A stretch of DNA of 49,126 bases from an uncultured Bacillota bacterium. GTDB taxonomy: Bacteria; Bacillota_I; Bacilli_A; RF39; UBA660. The notes beneath the pieces were generated by a model that saw nothing but the letters and a program-made list of their open reading frames with translations, was not told the origin of the DNA and did not search any database. The position numbers were made by a program, and so were the translations under genes. Below are positions 2,068 to 26,734 of this stretch, piece by piece. The stretch is taken from the NCBI GenBank assembly GCA_947650795.1, contig CANSWR010000005.1, positions 1 to 49,126 of the forward strand, written 5' to 3'. The first letter of the stretch is position 1. The number at the start of each line of letters is the position of its first letter.

Positions 2068-3663
2068 ATGAAGGTAATTAGCATAGTAATAGATAATGAT
2101 GCTTTTCTTGTGGAAAAAGTTAAAATTAGAAGTAGAAATAATGTTGATAATAATCAAGTTGTTAACAATACTTTTTATTATACAGAAAAATATATAAAGA
2201 AAAATAATGATATTGTTAAAGAAATTTTAAGTACTAAAAGTATTAAACGTGTTATTTATAAAGATTTTGATTCTTTTTTAACATTATTTTCTTTAATAAA
2301 TGTTAGTAATATAAGATTTGATGTTAATAAAGCTTTGACAAATAAGGTTATGGATACTTTAATACAGGATAATTATTTAGAATATTTGGAATGTTATTTT
2401 ATGCCAAGTGATTATGTTCATCAATTTGCTATAAAAAATATTTCTATAAAATTTAATAATGATATGTTATTTAGTAGTGAATTTGTTAGAGATAATGAAC
2501 TTAAAAATATGAAACATATATATTATAAAAAACATGTTAAGTTTCATAGTGAAAAAGATGTTATGGATAACTTAGAAGGTTTTTTAAGTGTTAATAGTCA
2601 TTTAGAGATAATACACTTATATTGTTATTCTTCAAATATGATATCATTTATTATAGAAAAATTAAATGATAGTAATTTTTATGATGTGAGTATTTATATA
2701 CATCAGAATGAAACAAATATTAATGATATTTCAAAAGAAACTAATTTTTTAAAAAAGATTAATAAGAAATTTAGTGAAAATGGTAAAAGAGAAATTAAAA
2801 TTATTTATTCAGAGGAATTTTTTAAGGAAAATATTTTTAAACAATTAACAATTAATGGTATAAAAATGTGTATGGTTTTTCTGCTATATTTGGGAGTAGT
2901 TTTTACTGTTAGTCAAAAATATCATGAATATTTAGCTATACTTAACATAAGAAAATTAGAAAGTGCGATTGCTACTGATTTTAATAAGATAGTTATTGAT
3001 GAAATAGATGATACTGAGATAAATGTTATAGTACCTACCAATCCAGAACCTGTTGTGCCAAGTGAAGAAGAACCACCCAAAGAGTATATAAATTATTATG
3101 CTAACATCCCAACAACTTATGATAAACTACTAGAAATAAATAGTGATGTTGTAGGATGGTTACAAGTTAATAATACTAAGGTTAATTATCCTGTTACAAA
3201 ATCTAAAGATAATACTTATTATTTGGAGCATGATATATATAATAAAGAAATTATTACAGGCTGGATATATATGGACTACAGGAATGATTCAACTACATTA
3301 GACCATAATACTATAATTTATGGACATAATTTAATAAGTGGATATATGTTCGGAGATTTGACTTTTGCTACTAGTAGATGGTGGTATACAAATCCACAAA
3401 ATCAAATTATTACTTTTAATACTTTGGATAAAGAGATGAAATGGAGAATCTTTTCTGTCTATAGAACTGATTATACTACTGATTATTTGAAAACTAATTT
3501 TTATAATGATGAACAATTTATGGAATTTGTTAATTTAATAAAAGGTAGAAGTATAAATGATTTTAATGTAAATGTTAAGCCTGGAGATAAAATTCTTACT
3601 TTAAGTACTTGTACGGGAAGTAACAATAGGCGACTTGTTATACATGCTGTTTTAATTGGATAA
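2068..3663 (+). CDS. Class B-like sortase with a large cytoplasmic N-terminal domain
   Basis: The C-terminal about 190 residues are a sortase of class B type. They contain a VVGWLQV/VNYPV opening, the catalytic His420 in YGHN, Cys515 in LSTC and Arg522 in NNRRLVIHA. One membrane segment lies at about 265-282, followed by a proline- and glutamate-rich linker (about 325-345). Sortases usually have only a short N-terminal tail. Here 264 residues precede the membrane segment and carry no export signal, so they should be cytoplasmic; I recognise no domain there. The gene starts with ATG after AGGAGAAGAG. Its divergent neighbour carries NPKTG and is the obvious substrate. Confidence 0.88.
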   Translation: MKVISIVIDNDAFLVEKVKIRSRNNVDNNQVVNNTFYYTEKYIKKNNDIVKEILSTKSIKRVIYKDFDSFLTLFSLINVSNIRFDVNKALTNKVMDTLIQDNYLEYLECYFMPSDYVHQFAIKNISIKFNNDMLFSSEFVRDNELKNMKHIYYKKHVKFHSEKDVMDNLEGFLSVNSHLEIIHLYCYSSNMISFIIEKLNDSNFYDVSIYIHQNETNINDISKETNFLKKINKKFSENGKREIKIIYSEEFFKENIFKQLTINGIKMCMVFLLYLGVVFTVSQKYHEYLAILNIRKLESAIATDFNKIVIDEIDDTEINVIVPTNPEPVVPSEEEPPKEYINYYANIPTTYDKLLEINSDVVGWLQVNNTKVNYPVTKSKDNTYYLEHDIYNKEIITGWIYMDYRNDSTTLDHNTIIYGHNLISGYMFGDLTFATSRWWYTNPQNQIITFNTLDKEMKWRIFSVYRTDYTTDYLKTNFYNDEQFMEFVNLIKGRSINDFNVNVKPGDKILTLSTCTGSNNRRLVIHAVLIG

Positions 3664-4422: not shown

Positions 4423-5850
4423 ATGAGAAAAGATTTAAGTTGTGGAAAAAGAGTAAAAGAATTATTGACTAGGAGGACATTGCCTACTTTGTTAGCAGGT
4501 ACTTTATTATTTGGTAGTAGTGCAATTTTAAGTGAGGCAGAAGCTTATTCTTTAGATAAGCCAGAACAAACTTATGAGGATTATTTGAGTTATGATGGTA
4601 TAAAAGTATTTATAAATGGTAGAGTTACTCAATTTAGTGATTTGACAGGGTATCCATTTGTTAGTGAGAATACTGTTATGTTACCTTTAAATGCAGTAGC
4701 TGAAGCTTTTGGCGCAGTTGTAAATTTTGATAGTGAAAAAAATGTTATTAGTTTAAAAAAATATGATTATGAAATTAAAGTTGTTACCAATTCTAAGGAA
4801 ATAGAGTTTATAGATTTGGAATCAGGTGAAAAGAAAATTAATTCTATAAATAATAATATATTAGTTATAGATGGAAAAACATATATTCCAATAAATGGGT
4901 TATTTGAGTGTTTTGATTTAAATGTTAGACAAGATGAATTAAATAATATTATACATATAGAGACTGTTAGTTTAGAAAATTTAGAAAATATAGATTTTAA
5001 AGAAGAAAGAATATATTCTATTTCAGATTTATTAACTATGAAAAATATAAAAAGTTATAATTATGATGGAGAGCATATAGATAAAGATTATTTGAATGTT
5101 TTAAATAATAGTAATCAATATGCAGTAATTGTTAAAGAAAATGAAGCCATGATATTTTCTTATCAGTATTTATCAAATTTAGATTATTTTTATGGTAAAG
5201 AAAAATTACTTAATGATGCTTCAAGAGCAAGTGAGAATGGTTATGCAAAGGTAACTGTTAGAAATGGAGATTATTTAACTAGATTATTTTTTTCAAGGAT
5301 ATTTCAAGCTTGTTCTTTTGAAAATGATTTAGGTGGTAAAGCTTTTAAAAAAGATTCTACTGATATAACAGATTTTACTGTCAGTACACCATTATATAAA
5401 GATGATATGTTTTCTAAAATCATTAAAGAAGCTAATAAAATTATAGAAGAAATTAAAAGTAAGACTAGTGATAAGAAGGAACAAGCAATTTTATTAACTG
5501 ATATTTTATTTAAAAGAATAGAATATGATAAGGATAATAATTCTAGAAATTCAATTTATGGAGCATTAGTTAAATATGATACTAAATGTGAGGGATATGC
5601 TTTTGCTTATAATTATATCGCTAGAGAGTTAGGAATACCTTGCGTATTTTCTTCTGGTTTTTCAAAGAATAAAACATCTCATGCTTGGAATCAAGTTTAT
5701 ATAAATGGAGAATGGGTAATTTGTGATCCAACTCATGGTGTTAAAATGGTTTCTTTAGATGATTTTAGATATGCTATATATGATAATACAGACGCTCAAT
5801 ATTTAGAGGAAAATGAACTAATAAAATTGACTTATAAATTTGAAAATTAG
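4423..5850 (+). CDS. Secreted transglutaminase-like protein with copper-amine-oxidase-N-type domain
   Basis: The 475-residue protein has a long, twin-basic N-terminus followed by a hydrophobic export segment (about residues 22-42). Residues about 55-175 resemble the copper amine oxidase N-terminal domain common in Bacillota wall proteins (IKVFINGR, MLPLNAVAEAFGA, KTYIPINGL). The C-terminal domain (about 335-460) is transglutaminase-like with an intact triad: Cys389 in TKCEGYA, His420 in SHAWN and Asp435 in VICDPTHG. Family members act as wall-associated proteases or amide-bond crosslinkers; the substrate cannot be told from sequence. It has its own promoter and terminator and lies between two paralogous exported proteins. 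Confidence 0.85.
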   Translation: MRKDLSCGKRVKELLTRRTLPTLLAGTLLFGSSAILSEAEAYSLDKPEQTYEDYLSYDGIKVFINGRVTQFSDLTGYPFVSENTVMLPLNAVAEAFGAVVNFDSEKNVISLKKYDYEIKVVTNSKEIEFIDLESGEKKINSINNNILVIDGKTYIPINGLFECFDLNVRQDELNNIIHIETVSLENLENIDFKEERIYSISDLLTMKNIKSYNYDGEHIDKDYLNVLNNSNQYAVIVKENEAMIFSYQYLSNLDYFYGKEKLLNDASRASENGYAKVTVRNGDYLTRLFFSRIFQACSFENDLGGKAFKKDSTDITDFTVSTPLYKDDMFSKIIKEANKIIEEIKSKTSDKKEQAILLTDILFKRIEYDKDNNSRNSIYGALVKYDTKCEGYAFAYNYIARELGIPCVFSSGFSKNKTSHAWNQVYINGEWVICDPTHGVKMVSLDDFRYAIYDNTDAQYLEENELIKLTYKFEN

Positions 5851-5884: not shown

Positions 5885-5898
5885 CTTTATGTTACAAT
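5870..5898 (+). promoter_or_regulatory. Promoter of the 5925-11028 operon
   Basis: TGTACA (5870-5875) and TACAAT (5893-5898) are spaced by 17 bases. It overlaps the preceding terminator hairpin and would start transcription near 5905, just before GAGGTG. Confidence 0.4.
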
Positions 5899-5924
5899 GT
5901 ATTTATTATAGAAGTGAGGTGCTT

Positions 5925-6602
5925 ATGAAAAGATATTTTGTATTGTTATTGTCACTTATTTTTTCATTGTTTTTTGTAAATATGCAGTTATTATCTGCTG
6001 ATTGCGAAGATATGATTAAAGAAGCTGATAAGATAAAAGTTTTTAAAATGACTAGGATACCAAAATATGAGGAAATTGAAGGCGAAGGAACTGAAAACGA
6101 TTTTCTTATTGGTGTTAGAATTGAAGGATTAAATGAGAGAATATATGCTAAAGTTAGTAATGATTATGATGATAAAATTGTTACTCTTAATCAAGATAAT
6201 CTTAAAGATGGCGTAGCTGAGGTAAGTAGTCCTTATATTTATAAAAGTGTTAAAATGACAGTAAGTTTATATTCTAGTGATGAAAGTTGTAATGTAACAG
6301 ATGCTTTAAAAGTTATAAATATAGATACTGATATTTTTAATGAATTTTATTATTATAAGGTATGTAATGAAAATCCTGATTTAGAAGTATGTGCACCAAC
6401 TTATGATAATTCTAAATATAATGAAGATACTTTTAAAGAAATGGTTGATGAGTTGATAGAGGAAAGAGATAAAACTATACTTGATAAGACTTTAGATTTT
6501 TTTAAAGAATATTATTTATTTATATTGATACCAATTTTGCTAATTAGTGTGATTTTTATTGTAAGAATAGTTTTATTAAAGAGGGGTATGAAAAATGAAT
6601 AG
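5925..6602 (+). CDS. Exported single-pass protein, paralogue of the 3701 gene
   Basis: The start is ATG 5925, placed just after GTGAGGTG; the longer frame from 5889 would begin inside the promoter. The 225-residue product has a signal peptide (about 1-25), a beta-rich extracellular domain, a cysteine pair (YYYKVCNENPDLEVCAP) followed by the same short helical segment as in the 3701 protein, and a C-terminal membrane helix (about 195-217). Overall order and the cysteine-pair block match the paralogue, although the first domain has diverged. It overlaps the giant cysteine-rich gene by 8 bases, which implies translational coupling and a shared role. Function unknown. Confidence 0.75.
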   Translation: MKRYFVLLLSLIFSLFFVNMQLLSADCEDMIKEADKIKVFKMTRIPKYEEIEGEGTENDFLIGVRIEGLNERIYAKVSNDYDDKIVTLNQDNLKDGVAEVSSPYIYKSVKMTVSLYSSDESCNVTDALKVINIDTDIFNEFYYYKVCNENPDLEVCAPTYDNSKYNEDTFKEMVDELIEERDKTILDKTLDFFKEYYLFILIPILLISVIFIVRIVLLKRGMKNE

Positions 6603-9600
6603 AAGTAAAATACTTAAAATTAGTTTAGCTTGTTTAGTTGTTATTTGTTTTCCTAGTTCTTTGTTTGCTGCTTATTCTGATCAATGTAGTTTGCAGAATT
6701 TGACTAATATTACTGTTTCTTCTACACAAAATAATTTTGCTGGTATAACAACATCTAATGGAAATCATACAGCTAATTTAACGTATAAATATGATGCTCC
6801 ATCTGGATGCGAAAATTCTGCAATATTTTGTATTACTCCAAGTATGTCTAGTCAATCTAATATGAGTTATACTTTGGCAAGTGACGATTTATATAATGTA
6901 AGTAATTGTACTAGTTCTAAAGATACAACTACTAAATATTGTGGAATGGCGGGAATACTTCAAGAAGCTTATGGAATGCAATCTCAAGTAGGTGATTATG
7001 CAAAATTAAATGGTGCTATAACTTTGTCTTTAAGATTATGGGCAGCAACTGAGAGAAAAGATGGCGGTCAAAATGGTCTTTTTGATGATTCTAAGTATGA
7101 TGGGGATATTACTAAAGCTTCTAATTATATTTGGGATACTGTTAATTCTGGAGGACAAGTTAGTACAGATGTTTTAAGAAAATACTTTCCAGAGATTAAA
7201 GATGAGTCAGATGATGTGATTCAATTAGCAGTTCAGTGGTATGCTAGTGCTGCTAAAGGTGTAGATATTCAAAGAGCAGATGATTTTATTAATGATGATT
7301 ATACGACTGTTAAAGGAGAAGGTTCAGATTCTGTAGAATTTAATATTAATGGCACTTTTCAAGAAGTATTAGGAGTTACTATAGATGGAGTAGAATCAGA
7401 TCAAATAGTGTATTCTAAGAAGCCATGTAGTAATGGAGAAGGAGAATGTTTGAGTTTTGATGTTACTGATGAAATGAAAGCGCAACTTTGTGAAGGTAAA
7501 CCTAATAATACAGAAATTCCGATTACAGTTAAAACTGTAAGTTCATCTGCAGTTGATAAGATGAGAGTTTATAAGCCTTCTACAAATGGTAGTAATCAAT
7601 ATTTTGTAGGATTTGATGCTTATGATCAACCTAAAGAGGTACCTTTTAATATAACATGTGAAGTTTTTACTGAAAAATGCGAAGTAGAAAATGGTGTGTG
7701 TAAGATAGGTGATGAGGTTGTTCAATGTGCTAATAGCAAGGAGGAAGCAGCAGAGTTATATCCTGAAAGTGATTGTTATTGTGAGTATGATGAAACAACT
7801 CAAGAATGTAAAGTAGGAGGAACACCAGTAAATTGTGAAGAGTATCCTGGTTGTGGACAAAGTGATTGTGAAGTAGAAAATGGTGTGTGTAAAATAGGCG
7901 ATGAAGTAGTACCATGCGCTAATACTAAAGAAGAAGGTGCTGTTTTATATCCTAATACTGAGTGTTATTGTGAATATGATGAAGATACTCAACAATGTAC
8001 AATAGATGGAACACCAGTAAACTGTGATGAATATCCTGGATGTAAGAAAGAAAAATGTGAAGTAGAAAATGGTGTGTGTAAAATAGGCGATGAAGTAGTA
8101 CCTTGTGCTAACAATAAAGAAGCAGCTGAGGTTTTGTATCCAGATAGTGATTGTTATTGTGAATATGATGAAAGTACTAAGCAATGTACTGTTGATGGAA
8201 CTCCAGTAAATTGTGATGATTATCCAGATTGTAAAGATGATGTATGTGTGCCAGTAAATGGAAAATGTTATATAGGAGACCAAGAAGTTTCTTGTGACAT
8301 TCCAGAGTGTGAGTGTGAAAGAGTTGGAGACGATTGCTTTATAGGTGAGTCTTCTGTAGATTGTGGTAAATATGAAAATTGTCCTAAATGTGAAAAAGTG
8401 GGAGATATTTGTAAAATAGGAGATAAAATTGTGAACTGTGGAACACATGCTGATTGTCCAAAAGATGATGATCCAGGTACTTGTCCTATAAGGAAACAAG
8501 ATGAGTTACCATATGACACTTGTAAAGATGGTCAAACAGATGGTTTACTTGCAGATCCACCAATGTGTTCAATATTAAAGAATAATATTAAAGCTGCTTA
8601 TGAAATAGAGCAGTATGGGGATTCAAAATATTGTGATGTTTTCTGTAGAGAAACATATGTGTTTAAGTTTATGGATAAAGAAGCAGTCCAATCTGGTAGA
8701 TATTTTAGACATGATGTTGAGAAAAAATATGTTAATGTATCTAATTTAAGTACTGTAGTAACTTCTACTCAGCAATGTACATCACTTATTGATTATGATA
8801 CTTGGAAACAAGATTATATAAATGCTAACAGAAGTGTTAGAGAAGCGTTTAATGAAGTTAAATACTGGGAGTCACTTTATAATTTGAATGGTGGTATGCC
8901 AACTAAGATTGATAATTGTGGCGGAGGCGCTAGTGGATGTGATGGTTGTTATTGGCCTGATGCTTGTGGAGACTGGGGGCTTCATTGGAATACAGGTTAT
9001 TATGGTAAGACTGATGCTTTCGGAAATAATCCAACTACATCTGCAAATGAAGATCATTTAGGTCGTGCTGCTCAGTGTCCTCAATTGGTATGTACAGGAG
9101 GGTATGACTTAAAAGGTAATTGTCTAGCTTACTCTTGTGTTGGTGCTTCTGTTGGGCCTGCATTAACTGTACAACAAGCTAGTGGTATAGATAGAGATTA
9201 TGTTATTAAACAACATGCTGCTGCAGTTTCTTCTTACAGATCTACTTTAAATACAAGAAATGATTTAATTAATAGAATATTTAATTGTAATTTCTTTGAT
9301 CCAAGTGAAGTTAGTCAATATTTTAATGATCCTGGTAGTTATTTTGTTTCAATGTTTGCTGGTAATCATACAGCTTCACCTAAAGTTACTTCTGAAACTT
9401 ATGGAGAGATTAGAGATAATTATGAACCTAATTCTGAAATAGAAAGATTGTCTTATGATGAACAAGGAAGATTAAAAGAAGAAGGCAGTGCTAGCAATGT
9501 TCAATTTGATAAATTGTTAAGTGATGAGAGAATAGTTGAAAACAAAGGTTACGTAACTAGTGCTGAAAGTAATAATCCAGAAGACAATACAGTTTGTGGT

Positions 9601-10578
9601 GGATGTGATGATCCTATTAATAATAAGTTATCATCAGTACCTAGACAAGATGATGAATATGGTCAACTTGATGGTAGAGATTTTACTTTCTGGGTATGTA
9701 CTGGAAGTTTAGCTGGAGCAAAATGTAATAATGAAAGTGGAAGATTAAAGATTCCTAAGAACTATGTTGCTAATATGGAGGTTACTCGAGAAACTGGTTA
9801 TTGGCAAAGAACAAATTTTGCTACTGAAATATTTACTGGTAAAGTAGTAGAAGGTAGTGGAGGATTACAGTTGCCTGAAAAATCTTGGCCAGTTGCTATT
9901 AGTACATTGACAGGAGATTATAATATATTCTTGAAATTTACTAAATTTGGTGATTTGAAGAGAAAGAATGGAACTCTTAAATTAGAATTTGATACAGATG
10001 TTAATTGTGGATATACAGTTATAAATGAAATGACTAAATATGATTGTGATGATGGATATCATGAATGTTATGATTGTGATGATCCAAGTACACCTGAAAA
10101 TGAATGTTTTCCACCAGGTGGAGGAGATCCAAGTGATCCTAAAAAATTAGATTTGGGCTTCTATTTTAGAAGTATTGATTTAACTGATATATTCCCTAAT
10201 TCTGTATATAGTCCTAATCAGACATTATTAAATCCTAATAGACCTATAGGTTCTAACTGGAATACTCCGAATGCTATTCAAGCTATAAATAAAATTCAAG
10301 ATTTAGGAAATGGTGTATGGGGAGTAGATCAAAAACCAGAATATGTGATAACTTTAACTCCAGCAATGAGAAAAGCTATTACTAAAAATAATAGAGAAAT
10401 ATATAAGGCAGATTATTTGACTGCAAGTACACTTTCATGTAATCAAAGTACAGCAATATGTAGTAGTACTTGGTTACAAAGAGACTTAAGAAATATTTTA
10501 CAAGATTTTAATCATGGAGACTATTTTGTTCAAAATGATAATTCAGGAAATAATTTGTATGTAGTTGGGAGGAATTAA
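6595..10578 (+). CDS. Giant cysteine-rich secreted protein with tandem repeats
   Basis: The 1327-residue protein begins with a signal peptide (cleavage probably after SLFAA, about residue 25). Residues about 30-250 form an N-terminal domain that weakly resembles Gram-positive thioester domains, with Cys79 in IFCITP. Three near-identical 63-residue cysteine-rich repeats and a degenerate fourth follow (nucleotides 7678-8470). The middle has many further cysteines (CGGGASGCDGCYW, CPQLVC). There is no C-terminal membrane helix and no sortase motif, so it must be released or held by partners. It is coupled to the 5925 gene and followed after 3 bases by a small TadE/F-like gene. My guess is a large adhesin or tip protein of the adjacent appendage; the sequence does not prove it. 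Confidence 0.85.
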   Translation: MNRSKILKISLACLVVICFPSSLFAAYSDQCSLQNLTNITVSSTQNNFAGITTSNGNHTANLTYKYDAPSGCENSAIFCITPSMSSQSNMSYTLASDDLYNVSNCTSSKDTTTKYCGMAGILQEAYGMQSQVGDYAKLNGAITLSLRLWAATERKDGGQNGLFDDSKYDGDITKASNYIWDTVNSGGQVSTDVLRKYFPEIKDESDDVIQLAVQWYASAAKGVDIQRADDFINDDYTTVKGEGSDSVEFNINGTFQEVLGVTIDGVESDQIVYSKKPCSNGEGECLSFDVTDEMKAQLCEGKPNNTEIPITVKTVSSSAVDKMRVYKPSTNGSNQYFVGFDAYDQPKEVPFNITCEVFTEKCEVENGVCKIGDEVVQCANSKEEAAELYPESDCYCEYDETTQECKVGGTPVNCEEYPGCGQSDCEVENGVCKIGDEVVPCANTKEEGAVLYPNTECYCEYDEDTQQCTIDGTPVNCDEYPGCKKEKCEVENGVCKIGDEVVPCANNKEAAEVLYPDSDCYCEYDESTKQCTVDGTPVNCDDYPDCKDDVCVPVNGKCYIGDQEVSCDIPECECERVGDDCFIGESSVDCGKYENCPKCEKVGDICKIGDKIVNCGTHADCPKDDDPGTCPIRKQDELPYDTCKDGQTDGLLADPPMCSILKNNIKAAYEIEQYGDSKYCDVFCRETYVFKFMDKEAVQSGRYFRHDVEKKYVNVSNLSTVVTSTQQCTSLIDYDTWKQDYINANRSVREAFNEVKYWESLYNLNGGMPTKIDNCGGGASGCDGCYWPDACGDWGLHWNTGYYGKTDAFGNNPTTSANEDHLGRAAQCPQLVCTGGYDLKGNCLAYSCVGASVGPALTVQQASGIDRDYVIKQHAAAVSSYRSTLNTRNDLINRIFNCNFFDPSEVSQYFNDPGSYFVSMFAGNHTASPKVTSETYGEIRDNYEPNSEIERLSYDEQGRLKEEGSASNVQFDKLLSDERIVENKGYVTSAESNNPEDNTVCGGCDDPINNKLSSVPRQDDEYGQLDGRDFTFWVCTGSLAGAKCNNESGRLKIPKNYVANMEVTRETGYWQRTNFATEIFTGKVVEGSGGLQLPEKSWPVAISTLTGDYNIFLKFTKFGDLKRKNGTLKLEFDTDVNCGYTVINEMTKYDCDDGYHECYDCDDPSTPENECFPPGGGDPSDPKKLDLGFYFRSIDLTDIFPNSVYSPNQTLLNPNRPIGSNWNTPNAIQAINKIQDLGNGVWGVDQKPEYVITLTPAMRKAITKNNREIYKADYLTASTLSCNQSTAICSSTWLQRDLRNILQDFNHGDYFVQNDNSGNNLYVVGRN
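7678..8470 (+). repeat. 189-bp in-frame tandem repeats (3 full copies plus degenerate)
   Basis: Units start at 7678, 7867, 8056 and 8245, exactly 189 bases (63 codons) apart. Each opens with a Cys followed by EVENGVCKIGDEVV and later contains CYCEYDE and a GTPVNC block. Copies 2 and 3 are nearly identical over their first about 45 bases, which suggests recent duplication. The fourth unit is shortened and diverged, with CKIGDKIVNC still visible. Confidence 0.95.
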
Positions 10579-10581
10579 TAA

Positions 10582-11028
10582 ATGAAATATACTTTTTGGG
10601 CTTATGGATTAATAGCGCTAGGGGTTGCAATATTAGTAGGTCTTAGATTTGTTAATGATTTAACAACTACTTCTGAAGCAGATTATTATCTTACTAAAGA
10701 AGTAATGCAAGCATCGATGTTAGATTCTATAGATTATGGTGTTTATAGAAGATATGGAGATGTTAGAATTATAAAAGATAAGTTTATAGAAAACTTTATT
10801 AAAAGATTTAGTGAAGGAGTTGGGGGGTCTAAAACTTATTCTATAGAATTTTATGAAATATATGAAGAGCCTGTTAAAGCTACAGTTATTGTTAAAACAG
10901 GTACTGGAAGTTTTCAAGTTACTAGTGATCAAGTATTGGATAGTGGAATATTGACAACATTAAGTGGAATAGTTGAAACTAAGTATCAAGAAGATTGTGT
11001 ACAAAAAGGTATATGTAATGAATATTAA
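10582..11028 (+). CDS. Small single-pass protein, TadE/F-like minor pilin candidate
   Basis: The 148-residue product has one N-terminal membrane segment (about residues 5-23) and an extracellular part with an early helix (TTTSEADYYLTKEVMQAS) and later beta-rich sequence. Cysteines occur only near the C-terminus. This layout resembles TadE/TadF pseudopilins; from memory it may correspond to the DUF5411 family. It starts 3 bases after the giant cysteine-rich gene, after GGGAGGAATTAATA, and ends in a terminator, so it closes that operon. Confidence 0.7.
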   Translation: MKYTFWAYGLIALGVAILVGLRFVNDLTTTSEADYYLTKEVMQASMLDSIDYGVYRRYGDVRIIKDKFIENFIKRFSEGVGGSKTYSIEFYEIYEEPVKATVIVKTGTGSFQVTSDQVLDSGILTTLSGIVETKYQEDCVQKGICNEY

Positions 11029-11152: not shown

Positions 11153-11971
11153 ATGAATAATTTGATTATTTCTTTAAAGAGGTTTTTTGGAAACAAAAAT
11201 ACAATAACAATTATATGTGTTTTAGCTATTGTTCTTATTTTGTATTTTGCATACAATTATAGAATTAAACAAGCTACTGAACCTTTAAGGGTTCCTTATG
11301 CAAGACAGGAAATTCAACCAAGAGAACAAATTACAGAAGATATGATAGGGTATGTGGAAATTCCTAAAAAGATGATTACTAGTAATACTGTAACTAATAT
11401 TAACAATATAATTGGTATGTTTGCGAATTATAATACAGTTATTCCATCTGGTAGTTTATTTTATCAAAGTACTTTAGTAACTTGGGAACAAATGCCTGAT
11501 TCTGCTTGGGCTGATATACCAGATAAATATACTGTTGTTAGTTTAAATGTTAATACTGAAACTACTTATGGTAATTCAATATTTCCTGGAAATTATATAG
11601 ATCTTTATTATGCTGCTCATGATAGTACTGGAAAACTGTTATTAGGTAAATTAATTGAAAGTATTGAAGTTTTAGCTGTAAAAGATGGCTCAGGTAATCA
11701 TGTTTTTGAAAATAGTGCAGAACTTAGTGCACCATCTTCATTAATATTTGCTGTTCCAGAAGATATGCATTTATTACTTAGAAAGGCAGGATATTTAAGT
11801 GGAGAGATTATTCCAGTTCCAAGAAATGCAAGTTATAGTGATAATCCAGGTGCTACTATTGTTAGTAGTGAATATATAGAAGACTTTATTTTGAGTCAAA
11901 CAGTTATATTACCTGAACAAGGTGGTAGTTCAAATGGTGGAAACAACGGAAGACCTGGAACAGTTAATTAA
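11153..11971 (+). CDS. cpaB: CpaB/RcpC-like SAF-domain protein
   Basis: The 272-residue protein has a cytoplasmic N-terminus, a membrane helix (about 18-37), then a SAF-type region (VPYARQEIQPREQITEDMI; ...GMFANYNTVIPSGSLFYQ) and the characteristic C-terminal CpaB half (NIFPGNY-like SIFPGNYIDLYY, VLAVKDGSG, FAVPEDMHLLLRKA). A Gly/Asn-rich tail ends it. CpaB/RcpC proteins assist Tad pilus assembly outside the inner membrane; in this monoderm it would act at the wall side. It is first in an operon with tadA, tadB and tadC. Confidence 0.85.
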   Translation: MNNLIISLKRFFGNKNTITIICVLAIVLILYFAYNYRIKQATEPLRVPYARQEIQPREQITEDMIGYVEIPKKMITSNTVTNINNIIGMFANYNTVIPSGSLFYQSTLVTWEQMPDSAWADIPDKYTVVSLNVNTETTYGNSIFPGNYIDLYYAAHDSTGKLLLGKLIESIEVLAVKDGSGNHVFENSAELSAPSSLIFAVPEDMHLLLRKAGYLSGEIIPVPRNASYSDNPGATIVSSEYIEDFILSQTVILPEQGGSSNGGNNGRPGTVN

Positions 11972-11990
11972 ATAAAAAGTGGGTGAAATT

Positions 11991-13094
11991 ATGAATAATT
12001 CTATATTTGATCAAATTGATTTTGGTCCTTTAAAAGATTTGCTTGATAACGATGACATAACAGATATATCTTTTTCGAATGGAGCTCAAGTTCATGTGAA
12101 AACACTTAGTAAAGGTGTTTTTCAAATAAATAGGCCAGAAATTAGTAATCAACTTATGGAAAAAATAGCGTTTCAATGTTCAAATGTTATGGGTAAGACG
12201 TTTAACATGGCTCATCCTATGTTGGATGCTGAGAGTGCTGAACTCAGACTTAACTTTGTTCATGAAAGTATAGCGACTAATGGAATTGCTTGTGTTATTC
12301 GTAAGACTCCTGCAAAAATAAGACTTAATAAAGAGAAACTTCTTAATGAAGATTATGTTTCTTTACCTCTTCATGATTTTCTGTTTAAGTGTGTTGAGGG
12401 TCACTGCAATATTATTGTTAGTGGAGAAACTGGTAGTGGTAAAACAGAGTTTGTTAAATATTTAGCAAGTCATATTGCTGAAAATGAAAAAATTATAACT
12501 ATAGAAGATACATTGGAACTTCATCTAGATAGAATATTTCCACATAGAGATATTGTAGCTATGAAAACTAATAATATTGCAAGTTATAGTGATATACTTG
12601 TTGCTTGTATGAGACAGAATCCAAAATGGATTTTATTGTCAGAGGTTCGTAGTGCAGAAGCTGTTACAGCTGTCAGAAACTCTATAAGTAGTGGACATAA
12701 TATTTTGTCTACTATTCACTCAGAAAAGGCAAGTGGAATACCTATGCGTTTATACAGTTTACTTGAGACTAATTTGGATGTAGAACAGTTTCTAAAAACT
12801 ATGCATAGATATATCCATTTAGGTGTTCATATTAAAGGTTATATGTCTAAGAAATATGAAAGATTTCAAAGAGAGATAGTAGAAGTAGCTGAGTTTTATG
12901 TAGATAAAGATAATAATGCTTGTACTAATGTGTTATTTAGTAAGGGTATGGACGGAAATGAGAGTTATCATAATCCTAGTTCATATTTATTGGATTATTT
13001 GGGAGCACAAGGTATTTATTTGCCTAAAGAAACTTTTGTCAGAGAAGGTACACAACTAAGAGAGGCTGTAGTACAAAGTGTTCCAGTAAATTAG
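11991..13094 (+). CDS. tadA: TadA/CpaF-type secretion ATPase
   Basis: ATG 11991 lies after GTGGGTGAA; the GTG at 11979 is part of that ribosome site. The 367-residue protein is a PulE/VirB11-superfamily ATPase: Walker A GETGSGKT at 145-152, an Asp box with ITIEDTLEL, Walker B region WILLSEVRSAEA with Glu218, and a His box STIHSEKA. It is shorter than most CpaF proteins because the N-terminal domain is reduced. In Tad systems it powers pilus extension and retraction. Since VirB11 belongs to the same superfamily and the T4SS genes follow, a dual motor role is conceivable, but the adjacent tadB and tadC favour a Tad role. Confidence 0.93.
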   Translation: MNNSIFDQIDFGPLKDLLDNDDITDISFSNGAQVHVKTLSKGVFQINRPEISNQLMEKIAFQCSNVMGKTFNMAHPMLDAESAELRLNFVHESIATNGIACVIRKTPAKIRLNKEKLLNEDYVSLPLHDFLFKCVEGHCNIIVSGETGSGKTEFVKYLASHIAENEKIITIEDTLELHLDRIFPHRDIVAMKTNNIASYSDILVACMRQNPKWILLSEVRSAEAVTAVRNSISSGHNILSTIHSEKASGIPMRLYSLLETNLDVEQFLKTMHRYIHLGVHIKGYMSKKYERFQREIVEVAEFYVDKDNNACTNVLFSKGMDGNESYHNPSSYLLDYLGAQGIYLPKETFVREGTQLREAVVQSVPVN

Positions 13095-13120: not shown

Positions 13121-14020
13121 ATGTACATAGAAATTTTAGTAATATTTTTTATTCTAGTTTTTATGGTCTTGTATAGACGTAATACTGGTGGTAAATTTTA
13201 TAAATATATTTCTAATGGAGTGAGTGAAGTCTATGATAAGTATGCACCTTATTCATTTAAAATGGTTAGGGAGAAGACTAAAGAGTTGGGTCAAGAATAT
13301 ACTCCAAGACAATACATGATTCAGATTGCTGTGTTTGCTGGAGGTGCTGCTATTGTTACATATTTATATTTTTATAGTATAATAGTATCTATAGTTTATG
13401 CAATTATTGCAGTACTTTTTATTCCTTATTTAGCGTATTTAAGATGTAATAAGGTTTATAGTGAATATTTATTTGAACAGATACAAGTTTATTCAACGAA
13501 CGTTATAATGGAGTTTAATACTACTCAATCTTTTGTTAAATCTTTAGAAGGTGTAAGGGATAGTGGGGTTCTTGAAGATCCTGTGCTTCATGATGTAAGT
13601 GAGATGATATCTATTGCTTATTCTAGTTCATCTATTGATGATGCTATAGATTATTTTAATAGTAAATATGATTATTATATTATAAGAAATATGCATCAAT
13701 TATTTTTACAAATAACTAAAGAAGGTTCTAAGGATTCTGGAGAAGCTTTAGAAGGAATGAGTCAAGATATAGACTCATTAGTAGAGAGTGTATATAGAGA
13801 TAGAATTGATAGAGCTAATTTTCATAAGCAGTTTCTTACATTTGGTGTAGCGTTGTATTTTTTAGTTTCACTAGTGCAATTGCTTTTAGGTAATGATAGT
13901 TATTTGGCTCTTATAAGTCAATGGTATGTTCAAATATTACTTCACCTTGTTGTGATAATTAATTCGTACTTTCTTCTTTCAGGAGAAAAATATTATAATG
14001 AGGATGTGGGCGCAGAATGA
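13121..14020 (+). CDS. tadB: TadB-like platform protein
   Basis: The 299-residue protein has an N-terminal membrane helix, two further helices around 66-110, a cytoplasmic T2SSF-type helical domain (about 120-235, with ...ESVYRDRIDRANFHKQ), and two C-terminal helices. This is the layout of TadB, an inner-membrane platform protein of the Tad pilus. GAGGTGAGC precedes the start. Its stop overlaps the start of the next gene as ATGA. Confidence 0.85.
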   Translation: MYIEILVIFFILVFMVLYRRNTGGKFYKYISNGVSEVYDKYAPYSFKMVREKTKELGQEYTPRQYMIQIAVFAGGAAIVTYLYFYSIIVSIVYAIIAVLFIPYLAYLRCNKVYSEYLFEQIQVYSTNVIMEFNTTQSFVKSLEGVRDSGVLEDPVLHDVSEMISIAYSSSSIDDAIDYFNSKYDYYIIRNMHQLFLQITKEGSKDSGEALEGMSQDIDSLVESVYRDRIDRANFHKQFLTFGVALYFLVSLVQLLLGNDSYLALISQWYVQILLHLVVIINSYFLLSGEKYYNEDVGAE

Positions 14021-14808
14021 TGATTGAAATAGGGATTATAGGTTTATTATTAGTTGTTATTTTGTTTGTTCAGGGTAAGATAGATGGTAATAAGTTTATA
14101 AAAGATAATGAAAAAATATTTAAGTTACTTAGAGAAGACGATTATAATTTTTTGGTTGCAGCTAGGTATGGAGATGGGGTAAACCCAGATGTTTTATTCG
14201 AAAAAAGAGTTAAGGATGGACTTTTAGTACTTGTTCTTTTAGTTGTTATATTTATAGCTAATTTGAACTTTTTGAGTTTGATTATTTGCTTTATAATTTC
14301 ATATATAGTTTTTAAAAACGGTTATTCAAAATTAAAAAGTTATTATAAAAAACATTTACATGAAATAGATATGTTACTTCCATATTATTTAAAAAGTTTA
14401 GAAATTTTGATTCAACATTATACAGTACCAGTTGCACTTTCAAAAAGTATTGATCAAGCTCCACCAATTTTTAAAGATGGGCTTAGAGAATTAATTGGAA
14501 GTATTAATGCAGGTGATTCAACAATAGATCCATACATGGCGTTTGCTATAAGATATCCTGTAAGAGATTCTATGAGAATGATGAGACTTCTTTATAGATT
14601 GGGTCTTGGTAATCAAGAGAGAAAACAAGAACAGTTGATTATGTTTTCTAGAACTATTTCTAGTTTGCAATCAAAAAGTAGAGATATGAAATATAAAGAG
14701 CGTCTTGATAAGATGGAAAGAAAGACAATGGTTATGCTTTCAACTACTGGTGCAGGAGTCATGGTAATATTAGTTATAGCTATTTTACAGATGTTTGCTG
14801 CGGTATAA
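14017..14808 (+). CDS. tadC: TadC-like platform protein
   Basis: The 263-residue protein pairs with TadB: an N-terminal helix, a hydrophobic hairpin at about 70-100, a cytoplasmic T2SSF-type domain (LPYYLKSLEILIQHYTVPVA... GDSTIDPYMAFAIRYP), and a C-terminal membrane helix (about 240-260). The 4-base ATGA overlap with tadB indicates coupled translation. A large terminator follows, so the operon cpaB-tadA-tadB-tadC ends here. Confidence 0.85.
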   Translation: MMIEIGIIGLLLVVILFVQGKIDGNKFIKDNEKIFKLLREDDYNFLVAARYGDGVNPDVLFEKRVKDGLLVLVLLVVIFIANLNFLSLIICFIISYIVFKNGYSKLKSYYKKHLHEIDMLLPYYLKSLEILIQHYTVPVALSKSIDQAPPIFKDGLRELIGSINAGDSTIDPYMAFAIRYPVRDSMRMMRLLYRLGLGNQERKQEQLIMFSRTISSLQSKSRDMKYKERLDKMERKTMVMLSTTGAGVMVILVIAILQMFAAV

Positions 14809-15795: not shown

Positions 15796-16785
15796 ATGAA
15801 TGTTATAATAGCAAATAAGTATAAAGAGATGTTAAGCGGTTTGGATATTGAAATAATTAAGTCTTTAGAAGGTGTTTATGATATAGACTATGTTATAAAT
15901 GAATTTTCTAATTTCTATTTTGATAGAATGATTTTAGATATCACTGCTCTTAGAGATTATGAAAATATTGATACTTTACAAAAATTAAGTATTAGTTTAG
16001 ATATGGGAAAAGTAATACTTTTGCTTGCAGATTCTGATGAAAGTTCTACTAGTGGATATTTATCTAAATTAATATCTATGGGAATTTATAATTTTACTAG
16101 AAATCTTGAAGGAGTTAAGTATTTATTACAGAATCCTAATAGTTATAGAGATGTCGCTCATATACATAATGTAAATGCTAGTAGTTCTTATATAGATGAG
16201 AGTTTATCTAATAAGACAAGAGTAATAGGAATTAAAAACCTTACGGATGGCGCAGGTGCTACGACGTTATGTTATATTATAAAAAAGCATTTAGAAGATA
16301 ATTATAGCGTATGTGCTTTAGAGGTAGATAAGAGGGATTTCTTCTATTTTGATGAAAAAGAAATGTATTCTACTTCATCAATGGATTTACCTAAAGAGAT
16401 TATGAAAAGAAGAGAATATAATATCATTTTGATAGATTTAAATAATTATAGTGATCCTGCTATATGTAACGATGTAATTTATTTAATTGAACCATCTATA
16501 CTTAAATTAAATAAATTGATGAAGAGGGATAGAAGAGTATTTGAAAAACATGCAAATGATAAAATAGTTCTTAATAAGAGTAATATATCTCAAAGCGACT
16601 TAAATGTTTTTGAATATGAAGCTAAAGCTAAAATATTTTATAATATACCAGCTTTAGATGAGAGAAGAAATACAAATAGAGAAGTTAATGGATTTTTGTC
16701 TAAATTAGGTTTTGCTAAACAGAGTATTGGAGCAGACGATGATGATAGTGCAAAAAATAAATTACTTGGAATGTTTAAATTTTAG
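15796..16785 (+). CDS. TadZ/CpaE-like protein with degenerate P-loop
   Basis: The 329-residue protein has an N-terminal receiver-like half (residues about 1-110: FYFDRMILDITALRDY, VILLLADSDE) and a MinD/ParA-like half, as in TadZ/CpaE, which place Tad systems in the cell. The expected deviant Walker A motif KGGxGKTT reads NLTDGAGATT (148-157), so the conserved lysines are missing. The later strand NIILIDLNNY and YLIEPSI fit the MinD fold. It follows the pseudopilin after 12 bases. ATP hydrolysis is doubtful; a structural or localisation role is likely. Confidence 0.72.
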   Translation: MNVIIANKYKEMLSGLDIEIIKSLEGVYDIDYVINEFSNFYFDRMILDITALRDYENIDTLQKLSISLDMGKVILLLADSDESSTSGYLSKLISMGIYNFTRNLEGVKYLLQNPNSYRDVAHIHNVNASSSYIDESLSNKTRVIGIKNLTDGAGATTLCYIIKKHLEDNYSVCALEVDKRDFFYFDEKEMYSTSSMDLPKEIMKRREYNIILIDLNNYSDPAICNDVIYLIEPSILKLNKLMKRDRRVFEKHANDKIVLNKSNISQSDLNVFEYEAKAKIFYNIPALDERRNTNREVNGFLSKLGFAKQSIGADDDDSAKNKLLGMFKF

Positions 16786-16864: not shown

Positions 16865-17302
16865 ATGAATTTAGGGAATATGTTTAGTTTTATGGAAACT
16901 GCTGAGGGATTATGTGGTACTTTAGCTCCTGTTTGGACAATATTTGGATATATAATTTTTGCGATTAAGGTCGTAGTACCATTGTTATTGATTGTTACTG
17001 GTATGATAGCGTTGGCTCAGGCAGTAATGAAACAAGATGAAAAAGACATAAAGAAAGCTCAAGGAATTTTGATTCAAAAGCTTATTGCAGCAGTACTTGT
17101 TTATTTAGTTATTACTATTACAGGAGTTGTAGTAGGATTAGTTATGGGTGGTAATGCTGATTGGAAAGGCTGCGCAAAATGTGCATTTCATCCATTTGAT
17201 ACTTCATGTGGAATAACTGGTGGATCAACTGGGGATACTAGCGATTACGGTCAAGGAACGCCTTCTGGTGGACAAGATCAAAATCCTGCTGGTGGTAATT
17301 AG
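16865..17302 (+). CDS. VirB2-like T4SS pilin candidate
   Basis: The 145-residue protein has two hydrophobic helices (about 24-47 and 68-94) joined by a short charged cytoplasmic loop (KQDEKDIKKAQ), the layout of VirB2/TrbC-type pilins. An extracellular tail carries four cysteines (GCAKCAF...TSCG... plus LCGT before the first helix) and a Gly/Gln/Ser-rich end. It has its own promoter and terminator, as expected of an abundant subunit. The two-helix block resembles the C-terminus of the next gene. Assignment rests on topology and context, not on a diagnostic motif. Confidence 0.68.
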   Translation: MNLGNMFSFMETAEGLCGTLAPVWTIFGYIIFAIKVVVPLLLIVTGMIALAQAVMKQDEKDIKKAQGILIQKLIAAVLVYLVITITGVVVGLVMGGNADWKGCAKCAFHPFDTSCGITGGSTGDTSDYGQGTPSGGQDQNPAGGN

Positions 17303-18702: not shown

Positions 18703-20892
18703 ATGAAATATAGATTACTAAAAAATGTTACTAGTATAATGGGCTTTTCTATTCCTATTATATCTGAATTATGTATATTTATAGATTGGGCTATATATGC
18801 GGTTGCTAGTATGGCCTTACAAACTTTTTATAAAATGGCAGAGATATCAGCTAATATGTTTAGTGCAACAGCTCAAAGTAATGCAGTTGCTACAATGGAA
18901 AGTATTTTGAGTAGAGTTATGGTACTTGCTGGAGTTTTTGCGTTGTTTAGATTAGGAATAATGTTAATAAATTATATGATATCTCCAGAAAATACTAAAA
19001 AACTAGGTCAAACTGGTACAGATTTTGTTAAAAGTGTTATTATTGCTGTTGTTTTGTTAGCAGCTAGTAAGACTATTTTTACTCAGTTAGGTAAGTTTCA
19101 ATGGTTAGTTATAAATAATGATAAGCTTATACCAAAGTTGGTTTATGGAACTGACGAGAATCCAGTGACATATTCTGATAAGAAAGAAGCAGATATGTTT
19201 ACTAATAAAGTTTGGTCAGTATTTTTTCAACCAAATAATAAAGCAACATCAGGTGGTAAACAATCTTGGGAAAAAGTGAGAAACGCAGATGCAAATATAG
19301 CGTCTATGATAGGTAGAAATTATAATGAATTTGATTATTATCCATTTATTTCTGGTTTAGTTGGAATGATGCTTGTATATTATTTTGTTATTTTTTCTGT
19401 AGAATTAGGTTCTAGAGTTATAAAATTAGTAGTGTTACAGGTTTTATCTCCTATTCCAATCATTATGTCAGTAGATCCTAGTCAAAAAAATAAATTAACT
19501 AATTTTTGGAAAGCATATTTTGCTATTTATATTCAAATTTTTGTAAGAGTATTAACATTATATATAGCATTTATAGTTTTAGATATGCTTCAAGAAGCTT
19601 TGAAGGAATTTGGTAGTGGCTTAATTGCATCTACTAGGTTAATGGCAGGAAATTTTGTTATAGATGTAATTATGGTATTTGCTGTTTTTCAAGCTGCTAA
19701 GGAATTACCTAAAGTTGTTGAAGATGCCTTAGGTCTTAAATTAGGACTTCAAACTAGTGGAAAAGGTGGTTTTGCTAATTTAGTAGGAGGATTGATTGGT
19801 GGTTCTGTTGGACTTATAGGAGGCGGAATTGCTGGAGCAGTAGGTGCTTATGGGGGAAGCTTAGGAACAAGAATAAGTGCTGGATTAGTAGGTGGTGTAA
19901 CTGGATTATATCATGGTGCTAATGGGGGTAGTCGTGGAAAAGGCGTAGCAGATAGAGTTATGAAAGTAACTGGAGCTGTAAGAAAATCTAATGCATTAGG
20001 TGGTGCTATTAGGGCGACTGATGGAGCGTTTAATTATTTTAGAGGCGGAATAGAAAATGTATTTGGTGCGCAGAGAAGAGATCAAGCTACTTTGGAATCA
20101 TATGACAAACAAATAAAAGAACAAGATGATTATAAGAAAATGTATGAAAGTAAAAATGAGGGAAGAAGAAAAGAAATTTCAGATAGAGAAAAACAAATTC
20201 AAATTATTAATAGAGGAGAGCAGTTAAGAAATAATATTTTAAATGTGGCTAATAATTCATTTGTTCAAGATCATGGAAGTTTGGAAGCTTTTATGTCAAG
20301 GGATGCTGAATTAAGTAGATTAAAAGAGACAATAAGAATTAATAATGAAAATGGTTTCTATTTACGAGATGATAATGAAGATTATAGACAATTAGATTTA
20401 GATAGAGTAACACAAAGACAGAGTCAGTTAACTAGTCAATATGAAGGAATGAAAGAAACATATTTTGAGAATTTATTTAATGGCTCTACAGCTTCACAGA
20501 ATACGGATATTAGTACTGCTATGAATGAATATAATAATTATTTATCTGATAATGGATTACAAAATAGAGGAATTAGTTCTTATAGAGCTGTTCCAGGAGA
20601 TATAAATTCTGTTAAGAGATTTGATCAAATTAGAGATTTAGATAAGTTAGAAGTTAGAAATTTAGAAGCTGATATTAATAAGTATCAGAAAGAAATTCAA
20701 TTCTCTCAAACTAAATCTAATATGAGAGATGGTAGAAAGAAAGATATTGAAGCACAGAAAGAAAAATTTAAAAATGATCCAAGAACAAGAAGTCATGATA
20801 AAGATGTTAGAGCTACAGCACCTTTAGTGCCACCAAGACCAATAGGTGGACGACCACCTAGAGGACCTCACGGTCCTGGGCCAAGACCTTAG
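18703..20892 (+). CDS. VirB6/TrbL-like polytopic channel protein
   Basis: The 729-residue protein has about six membrane helices in residues 15-345 (for example MVLAGVFALFRLGIMLINYM, AIYIQIFVRVLTLYIAFIVL), typical of TrbL/VirB6-type T4SS core proteins. A glycine-zipper stretch (about 352-410, GGLIGGSVGLIGGGIAGAVG) follows, and then a long charged cytoplasmic tail with predicted coiled coil (about 455-690) that ends in a Pro/Gly/Arg tail. The tail is unusual for the family. The gene starts 13 bases after its predecessor, behind GGGAGG. Confidence 0.75.
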   Translation: MKYRLLKNVTSIMGFSIPIISELCIFIDWAIYAVASMALQTFYKMAEISANMFSATAQSNAVATMESILSRVMVLAGVFALFRLGIMLINYMISPENTKKLGQTGTDFVKSVIIAVVLLAASKTIFTQLGKFQWLVINNDKLIPKLVYGTDENPVTYSDKKEADMFTNKVWSVFFQPNNKATSGGKQSWEKVRNADANIASMIGRNYNEFDYYPFISGLVGMMLVYYFVIFSVELGSRVIKLVVLQVLSPIPIIMSVDPSQKNKLTNFWKAYFAIYIQIFVRVLTLYIAFIVLDMLQEALKEFGSGLIASTRLMAGNFVIDVIMVFAVFQAAKELPKVVEDALGLKLGLQTSGKGGFANLVGGLIGGSVGLIGGGIAGAVGAYGGSLGTRISAGLVGGVTGLYHGANGGSRGKGVADRVMKVTGAVRKSNALGGAIRATDGAFNYFRGGIENVFGAQRRDQATLESYDKQIKEQDDYKKMYESKNEGRRKEISDREKQIQIINRGEQLRNNILNVANNSFVQDHGSLEAFMSRDAELSRLKETIRINNENGFYLRDDNEDYRQLDLDRVTQRQSQLTSQYEGMKETYFENLFNGSTASQNTDISTAMNEYNNYLSDNGLQNRGISSYRAVPGDINSVKRFDQIRDLDKLEVRNLEADINKYQKEIQFSQTKSNMRDGRKKDIEAQKEKFKNDPRTRSHDKDVRATAPLVPPRPIGGRPPRGPHGPGPRP

Positions 20893-21233: not shown

Positions 21234-21780
21234 TAAAAAAAGTCAAAGATATGCTGAGAATTGGGTTCCTGTTAAATCAATCTTAAATGGTTGTATTCAG
21301 TTAGATGATGGAATGCAAGTTACAGGTGTTAAAATACAACCTAAAAATATATTTATAATGGATTATGATAGTCAGAAAAATGTCATTTATAATCTTAGAA
21401 ATTTCTATAATACTTTAGATTATGAATTTTGGATTATATGTGCTGATAGACCTGTAGATATAAACATTTATTTAAGTCAACTCCAGCTTTTATATAATAA
21501 TGTTACTACTCCAGTTATGAAAAAATTGATAATGCAAGATATAAATAAAGCTAATTTGTTTATGAGTAAAGAAATTGGCGTAGCTGATACAGAGTATTTT
21601 ATATTATTTAGAGAGAAAAGACCTGAGATTATTCATAAAAGAATACAGAATATTATTAGTGGTTTGGCATCTTGTGGACTTAATTCTTCACAAACTAGTA
21701 ATGATGATTTGCGAGTATTACTAGATGGTTTCTTCAATGATGGACGTAGAACTGAGTTTGGGACGGTGATTAGCGAATGA
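21214..21780 (+). CDS. VirB4 N-terminal part, encoded as a separate ORF
   Basis: ATG 21214 is preferred over the GTG at 21205. The 188-residue product (MSTAKINKK..., WVPVKSILNGCIQLDDG, VTGVKIQPKNIF) matches the start of Gram-positive VirB4/TraC-like ATPases, which carry this domain before the P-loop part. Its stop overlaps the ATG of the next ORF as ATGA. The clean overlap argues for a real split gene rather than decay; the two proteins would assemble as one ATPase. Confidence 0.72.
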   Translation: MSTAKINKKSQRYAENWVPVKSILNGCIQLDDGMQVTGVKIQPKNIFIMDYDSQKNVIYNLRNFYNTLDYEFWIICADRPVDINIYLSQLQLLYNNVTTPVMKKLIMQDINKANLFMSKEIGVADTEYFILFREKRPEIIHKRIQNIISGLASCGLNSSQTSNDDLRVLLDGFFNDGRRTEFGTVISE

Positions 21781-26500: not shown

Positions 26501-26734
26501 GTTAAAGCAGGAATGATAGCAAGTCTATTAGAAGAAGGATATCAAGTAATTTTAAGAGTAAAATCTCCAGCAAGTAATTCTATTAATGGACAGGGAGATC
26601 AACATTATGTTGTAGTTACTGGTGTAAGTGGAAGTGAAATTTATATAGCTGATCCAGGTTATAATGTGAATAAAATTTCAGATAAGTATATAAATGAAGG
26701 ATTAACTTGGGCGAAAGGAATAAAATTTAAGTGA
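23582..26734 (+). CDS. Membrane-anchored SpoIID-domain and C39-like peptidase fusion
   Basis: The 1050-residue protein has a long, charged, Ala/Gly/Lys-rich cytoplasmic part (about 1-205), one membrane helix (about 208-238), and an extracellular region. Residues about 690-850 form a SpoIID/LytB-like domain (EKYIMGVVYAESGN, EALKAQAIAAASYVL), a family that acts on peptidoglycan. Residues about 895-1040 form a C39/papain-like peptidase domain with Cys904 in GCYMTCHAMV, His1008 in QHYVVV and Asp1024 in IADPG. It takes the place that wall-hydrolase proteins such as VirB1/CwlT-type subunits hold in T4SS loci, so local wall opening is the likely role. The middle part (about 250-690) is unrecognised. 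Confidence 0.8.
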   Translation: MENENKNNVNPHDKQKENIKDVVKTNKNRTHNEATFGSQNYSVNRFGVQRNNKDIDEDKSNIRKKIDATKAKNLQESGNAQYIPNAGESLNSDYDNSYVTDDEKDPIAKAVDGASKIGNTANSLKTGVDKTVEGASKLYDKFKEKAGEKSLETIGGGLKPGGKNTLKGLESASKLATDGVKGATKAVQAGAKAAETVGKAIIDVVSKAIAFLVSAFGLPTIIITGLIALIIFIIVIIQIMISGYGQKFGIDSTNIEEVLRNEEYMEGLSREEIEDILNEAETCKLRWWDYIRNFFGMPDLENPCVIRNIIKKEIEDREKNGDSQTRHSHSVRVKTEDEIAPGYLFATLYYAFDTQNYDENGDLYIPVVTSGHTNYNDDGEIIDTVVISDVDAITTLLNTKKPNTCKSVDINGNPSDCEPIYEMEDIMKLLDNYIFFEDHHNDDANHGSGPYSYKGYKYGKPYWLYQYIIVYYDENDNPVWDWACVQQTPETFYTDAEKFKLYLRYGEDVMDAYENDKNWNLQWQKTDDVCKSWSGWTKWANGDIEEFGSVSLEPPPSMSKYNTKADPDSEGDDGAKITIDSGTYGYDSGFIYKTFPRYDENFITVPRDYDYKIDKEIEKIIQTIDSRQDYTNYVLGYDSTVSKYISGIGNGSYNFNAGANCTFDIGGAEVSDIKVRLKHARKNDAIPSELAGKPIEGQELVDFEKYIMGVVYAESGNSSPEALKAQAIAAASYVLSSYKIVNENGVNIIEISNSTFEQTYCDPDKGCYTCLDSNYSQNHIVTLLTQGTVPAGAKCNSNPRGPLSSDSPIRSAVKAVSGQVLKDSNGNIIRTGYGQSEQNKWNDLANSGMDYVEIIRDTYGSQYQLSDPNCTYGVTGEWSEWKQWSDPWKNIIIGGGSTVGKIGCYMTCHAMVIAQGAKNILIPNFNPGTFAEYLKANGGFDSGGNLYSSKALDLAVGAGNWEEKPIYLRGSMDVKAGMIASLLEEGYQVILRVKSPASNSINGQGDQHYVVVTGVSGSEIYIADPGYNVNKISDKYINEGLTWAKGIKFK

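Follow-up and report, generated by a model that had tools for sequence, protein, structure and literature searches.

A secreted cysteine-rich protein with a thioester-domain-like head, encoded beside Tad and type IV secretion genes in a family of uncultured Bacillota

We describe a putative secreted cysteine-rich adhesin, here called CYS, that is encoded next to Tad and type IV secretion system (T4SS) genes in an uncultured Bacillota bacterium. Its gene occupies positions 6595-10578 on the forward strand of the window, by which we mean the whole stretch of 49,126 nucleotides that was analyzed. The protein has 1327 residues, 73 of which are cysteines. With a probability of roughly 0.6, we read CYS as a sortase-independent, probably covalent contact adhesin made for the neighboring Tad/T4SS machine. 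So far, thioester domains (TEDs) have been known from sortase-anchored surface proteins and from one conjugative-plasmid adhesin studied in detail. Here, the probable contact end of a secretion or pilus machine is a TED-like head, and this machine is common across a large family of uncultured gut bacteria. The head sits on a new base domain and an unusual Cys stalk, and close relatives have other heads on a homologous base. If our reading is correct, one Cys and one Gln become a means to test how these bacteria hold their partners, and CYS defines a protein family that is matched by no Pfam entry.

CYS and its locus

An initial sequence-only reading of this DNA had described a secreted, cysteine-rich protein of 1327 residues with neither a membrane anchor nor a sorting signal, and this description was confirmed. 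The N-terminal signal peptide covers residues 1-26 (6595-6672, forward strand; boundary placed by eye). Beyond residue 60, CYS has no hydrophobic segment, the highest 19-residue mean being 1.09, and LPXTG is absent from the window protein. A hydrophobic N-terminal segment was present in 106 of the 117 CYS homologues checked, and none of the 117 combined LPXTG with a C-terminal transmembrane segment (TM), our criterion for a sortase anchor. A Pfam scan of CYS (P0001) gave no family match, and this includes isopeptide or ester (Cna-type) stalk domains. Searching PDB sequences with CYS yielded nothing useful, and the A2 profile retrieved designed helical proteins only. We also considered whether CYS is carried on mobile DNA and rejected this, as searches of plasmid and phage records with P0001 gave no match.

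The gene upstream of CYS (5889-6602) encodes a membrane partner of 237 residues, with a signal peptide, an ectodomain and a C-terminal TM (mean 3.1). The two ORFs overlap by 8 nt, which supports the coupling to a membrane partner that had been proposed. The placement of CYS directly before the Tad genes was equally well founded, because DUF5411, CpaB and TadA follow at once. The DUF5411 gene lies immediately 3' of CYS (10582-11028; PF17424, E=7.7e-45). It is followed by a CpaB/RcpC-like gene (11153-11971; PF16976, 2.1e-5, under the Pfam cut-off) and a gene for a TadA/CpaF-like ATPase (11979-13094; PF00437, 3.4e-27). Genes for two membrane proteins (13121-14808) occupy the place of TadB/TadC; the proteins have no Pfam match and are named by position, and their homologues were found 3' of TadA in 28 of 28 long loci. 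A CpaE/TadZ-like protein (15796-16785) was assigned by reading and position, with no Pfam match, and a possible T4SS pilin (16865-17302) is weak (PF18895, E=0.013). Further downstream are a VirB6-like polytopic protein (18703-20892; position and reading, no Pfam match) and a VirB4/TraG-type ATPase (21777-23561; PF19044, 2.8e-11). These are followed by a SpoIID/C39-like wall enzyme (23582-26734; PF08486, 3.5e-10, with the C39 match under the cut-off) and a VirD4-type coupling protein (27620-30571; PF02534, 2e-50). All of these genes are on the forward strand. Like the minor pilins and tip proteins of Tad pili, CYS is encoded with CpaB/TadA-type genes. Unlike theirs, its N-terminus is not pilin-like, and it has a Sec signal.

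The head of CYS resembles a class II thioester domain

A YC-like motif near the N-terminus of CYS was the first pointer to a thioester domain, prior to any tests. The head comprises about residues 27-352 (6673-7650, forward strand; boundaries approximate). When 23 heads were aligned, the single invariant column was Cys79. In an alignment of 26 heads, the Cys was present in all 26 and one Gln column was filled in 25, the next-best Gln column reaching 6. An iterated head profile, whose seed set was picked by the Cys motif, matched 71 of the 117 homologues, and these 71 heads were admitted on their profile scores, regardless of the Gln. Among them, Cys79 is invariant (71/71) and Gln335 is kept in 67 of 68, compared with 10 of 53 for the next-best Gln column. 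Roughly 40% of the CYS homologues have no detectable TED head.

Cys79 (6829-6831, forward strand), the candidate thioester Cys, lies in FCIT (F78-C79-I-T), which matches the [YFL]C-hydrophobic-hydrophilic motif of TEDs. The candidate bond-forming residue, Gln335 (7597-7599, forward strand), lies in NQYFV. Because a hydrophilic residue precedes Q335, this stretch matches the weak PhiQzetaPhiPhi motif only partly. In the place of the TQxxPhiW helix motif, the window protein has SLRLW (7027-7041, forward strand; LSLRLW with the preceding residue), where the Gln is replaced (S145), and this counts against a TED. The bonding Cys and Gln are the only residues common to all known TEDs, which can do without the TQxxPhiW Gln (PMC4450167, PMC6194298). 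Our first guess, that the TQxxPhiW Gln is the bonding residue, was dropped on the basis of these papers. The Gln of FQEVL (about residue 256) was rejected as well, since relatives have no Gln there. Five heads that appeared class I-like by eye from their C and Q..W motifs (L102, L049, L057, L061 and L081) gave no Pfam TED match and were set aside.

Existing domain models match some of the relatives' heads. The Pfam TED model (PF08341) matches 5 of 23 aligned heads (best 2.3e-5), and TED_2 (PF20610) and the NCBIfam TQXA_dom model (TIGR03934) match 2 of 23 each. The window head itself has no match to the Pfam or NCBIfam TED models, which counts against a TED.

Structure prediction of CYS, put forward earlier as a check, supported the likeness of the head in part. 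The AlphaFold model of the head is of moderate quality (pLDDT 63, pTM 0.58). Strands, helices and a beta region precede the strand bearing the Gln, as in class II TEDs, where a beta-sandwich insert supplies the Gln (PMC6194298). In a Foldseek search of the PDB, the best two matches were to the class II TED 6fwy (chains A and C; E. faecium TIE86), with probabilities of 0.98 and 0.97 and E about 2e-3, and all remaining matches had E values of at least 0.29. However, the model superposes poorly on 6fwy (TM 0.28-0.32, rmsd 15.8), which counts against the TED fold of a barrel and a three-helix bundle.

The class II TEDs BaTIE, SaTIE and EfmTIE86 (PMC6194298) share with CYS the Cys motif and a beta region before a late Gln. 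CYS differs from them in that the TQxxPhiW Gln is replaced, no isopeptide domains were detected and there is no sortase signal. It also differs in the Cys79-Gln335 spacing of 256, which counts against class II; known class II examples have 171-204, as calculated from their residue numbers. From sequence and model together, we conclude that the head is TED-like, with a conserved candidate thioester pair in Cys79 and Gln335, and that it is class II-like by the order of its elements.

We consider it unlikely that CYS is an adhesin whose TED-derived head forms no thioester and binds a receptor non-covalently, Cys79 being then either free or part of a disulfide. Such a head would be consistent with the loss of the TQxxPhiW Gln, the long Cys-Gln spacing, the many further cysteines in CYS and the failure of Pfam TED to match the window head. 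However, the TQxxPhiW Gln is inessential for the bond in the studies cited above, and without some function of a Cys-Gln pair it is difficult to see why one Cys and one late Gln should be conserved together almost perfectly in otherwise very divergent heads.

The stalk consists of old four-cysteine repeats

Residues 362-621 form nine 4-Cys modules with the pattern C..C-x-[IV]-[GD]..V-x-C..C. Six of these are contained in three 63-residue tandem units (362-424, 425-487 and 488-550; 7678-8244, forward strand), each of which equals two 4-Cys mini-modules. Three more single mini-modules follow (551-573, 574-598 and 599-621; 8245-8457, forward strand). TRF detected 3.0 copies of a 189-bp repeat (7672-8234), with an 81% match and a score of 718, far above chance.

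The array had been read as exact 63-codon repeats, nearly identical in DNA between copies 2 and 3, that arose by recent 189-bp duplications and are still expanding. The period is indeed exact, but identity between the copies is only 71-76% at the protein level and 76-83% at the DNA level. Copies 1 and 2 are 73% identical in protein and 77% in DNA (dS 0.87), and copies 1 and 3 are 71% and 76% identical (dS 1.30). For copies 2 and 3 the values are 76% and 83% (dS 0.49), and 25 of 63 codons differ. Between all copies, dN is 0.14-0.18 (dS and dN by the Nei-Gojobori method). Exact DNA identity of copies 2 and 3 is confined to the first 45 nt (15 codons), a patch that may reflect gene conversion. 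The codon divergence of the copies rules out a recent repeat expansion in CYS. Going by these sequence comparisons, the 63-codon duplications are old and constrained, and the array is not visibly expanding.

We also asked how the repeats are distributed. An HMM of the 63-residue unit, run against relatives, matched the window CYS alone, and a unit common to relatives was therefore rejected. Internal repeats occur in 13 of 117 CYS proteins, the window protein included, and their units differ. Together, these results show the stalk to be rebuilt between species. An ORF of the distantly related genome G132 (L076; 7876-11826, reverse strand) contains five 31-residue tandem units. Two of its 93-bp units are 100% identical in DNA, which represents a truly recent stalk expansion in a relative.

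The base is conserved within one family and carries different heads

The C-terminal region of CYS, about residues 643-1327 (~660 residues; 8521-10575, forward strand), is conserved in an alignment of 112 sequences. Cysteines C658, C680, C684, C728, C898, C1001, C1138, C1151, C1161, C1282 and C1289 are kept in most of these sequences, as are N1221 and W1222 of a GSNW motif. An iterated HMM from residues 641-1327 found 57 of 61 large proteins encoded upstream of DUF5411 in other genera. We sampled 145 genomes of the window's family, nearly all from different genera and with one genome per species, and the base profile matched 95 of them; the relatives compared include metagenome assemblies. In a sample of 247 genomes from the class, one genome outside the family matched (E=9e-4), and in a sample of 295 from the phylum there was no match outside the family. 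The base domain thus appears to be almost restricted to this bacterial family. Since the structural model of the base has a pLDDT of 59 and Foldseek gave no significant match, we claim no fold for it.

Compared with near relatives, TadA is 78-84% identical, CpaB 72-81% and DUF5411 52-67%. The corresponding values are 32-40% for the CYS base and 20-32% for the part N-terminal to it. Within the genus of the window, two genomes (G007 and G005) have the TED head and two others (G002 and G003) fail the head profile, while their bases are homologous. When six 'GIRITIVD'-like heads were used to seed a profile, it retrieved those six alone, so the G002 and G003 heads cannot be assigned to that type. 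Because this profile never left its seeds, we rejected a single second head type and conclude instead that there are several unrelated or very divergent head groups. Fast divergence and head exchange are in keeping with a part exposed to a target that varies.

These data also bear on whether CYS is a structural part of an outer assembly, such as a collar or a wall-spanning extension of the Tad/T4SS channel, with a head that serves as a spacer and does not bind a receptor. A structural part could account for the near-obligate synteny, the conserved Cys pattern of the base and the lack of any anchor. We regard it as quite improbable, as divergence is fastest in the heads, which in close relatives are of unrelated types, and extra copies exist, unlike what is expected of an invariant component.

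Gene order is near invariant in relatives

The gene order partner-CYS-DUF5411-CpaB-TadA is near invariant across loci of the family. A Cys-rich gene is found immediately 5' of DUF5411-CpaB/TadA in 48 of 52 and 64 of 70 loci in two genome sets, which have some species in common. Where complete, the gene 5' of CYS encodes a protein of 150-420 residues with a C-terminal TM in 32 of 45 and 50 of 53 cases. In 70 of 82 loci, the partner and CYS genes either overlap or are separated by at most 10 nt. In some genera (L071, L078, L095, L097 and L099), a sortase-like ORF stands in the partner's place. DUF5411 is present in 119 of 145 sampled genomes, and a VirB4 of the type seen in the window in 49 of 58 genera. 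In 22 of these 49 genera VirB4 is on the DUF5411 contig, 21 times within about 10-15 kb (coordinates compared by eye). A literature search for DUF5411 or for a link between TEDs and Tad found nothing direct.

In about a dozen genomes (e.g. G113, G065, G074, G138 and G095), the base domain occurs in additional copies that lie apart from DUF5411/Tad, and most of these copies adjoin an upstream protein of 190-310 residues. The expectation that homologues always neighbor Tad genes was therefore too strong; this neighborhood is usual, not absolute. The extra copies, the lack of an anchor and the place of the gene beside a secretion machine could also be taken to mean that CYS is secreted cargo, an effector-like or released matrix protein and not a fixed adhesin, but this is very improbable given that CYS has its own Sec signal and is translationally coupled to a membrane protein and that known TED heads sit on surface adhesins (PMC4450167).

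Several loci depart from the common arrangement. Two or three CYS genes are in tandem or close together at L094, L175, L151, L197 and L076. At L090 (genome G067, 98% complete), CYS-DUF5411 has no downstream CpaB/TadA and the genome has no VirB4 match, which makes a loss of the machine possible. At L083 (2592-6513, genome G008), a frame change within the head, which may be due to assembly error, decay or phase variation, splits CYS into ORFs of 210 and 1057 residues.

A proposed role for CYS in cell contact

Having computed the architecture, conservation and synteny of CYS, we infer its thioester, target, docking, stalk stiffness and use by the machine. The Sec signal would export CYS, which would fold into head, stalk and base. 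In the class II-like head, Cys79 and Gln335 would form an internal thioester, and this would react with an amine on the target surface (e.g. Lys) to give a covalent bond. The nine tandem 4-Cys modules would serve as a stiff stalk. The ~660-residue base would dock CYS without a sortase or membrane anchor, the most likely site being the coupled TM partner and/or DUF5411, beside the Tad pilus and the VirB4/VirD4 channel. With a covalent head and a docked base, the machine could hold a neighboring cell or a host glycoprotein, comparable to the way mating is aided by the TED adhesin of pLS20, which needs no sortase. The sequence-only reading had cast CYS as a strong candidate for the business end of the system, an adhesin or tip. 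The TED-like head, stalk, conserved base, synteny and coupled partner speak for this, although the repeats are not recent and Tad adjacency is not universal. Instead of a tip, CYS might just as well be an adhesin on the cell surface surrounding the channel.

Covalent amine capture by an N-terminal head on a stalk, as in the class I TED adhesins SfbI and FbaB (PMC4450167), is our model for CYS. SfbI and FbaB have the class I fold and host fibrinogen as ligand, whereas CYS is class II-like and has no sortase anchor. TIEpLS20 (p34), a class II TED adhesin encoded in the conjugation operon of the Bacillus subtilis plasmid pLS20, is the closest precedent; it needs no sortase, and its Cys is required for efficient conjugation (PMC8092201). 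Both TIEpLS20 and CYS have a TED-type head behind a signal peptide, lack an LPXTG/TM anchor and are encoded with a T4SS. They differ in that TIEpLS20 is plasmid-borne and has a Cna stalk, whereas CYS has a stalk of 4-Cys modules, a lineage-specific C-terminal domain and Tad genes beside it. Moreover, TIEpLS20 belongs to a conjugation operon, whereas Pfam recognized no relaxase among the window proteins scanned, and DNA transfer is thus not implied for the window locus. A broader proposal, which we put forward tentatively and hold to be doubtful, is that the family, uncultured gut Bacilli with small genomes, vertically keeps a core hybrid Tad/T4SS contact machine with exchangeable heads, mostly thioester-type and covalently binding, on a Cys-module stalk, by which it attaches to partner cells. 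This would be a dedicated apparatus for cell-to-cell attachment and transfer, not a conjugative element.

Other genes in the source genome and window

The source genome also contains an integrated conjugative element (G000:C1:38000-72000; L209 and L210) with VirD4, VirB4 and M23 peptidase genes and a relaxase-like gene (PF03432 just under the cut-off). This element encodes a TED-SpaA adhesin of 904 residues (L210:485-3199) with a YCIEP motif and a C-terminal TM, and it shows a second instance of a T4SS paired with a TED adhesin. A search of the whole genome (about 93% complete) for DsbA (PF01323) and VKOR (PF07884) gave no match, despite the secreted protein with 73 cysteines.

Within the window, a protein with Cu_amine_oxidN1 and a transglutaminase core is encoded between the two TM genes (4423-5850). 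A protein of 531 residues with a C-terminal sortase domain is encoded at 2068-3663. Beside it, on the reverse strand, lies a gene for a divergent vWA-like protein with an NPKTG-type C-terminus (709-1944; by eye). A serpin (PF00079, E=4.9e-64) is encoded at 43861-45165.
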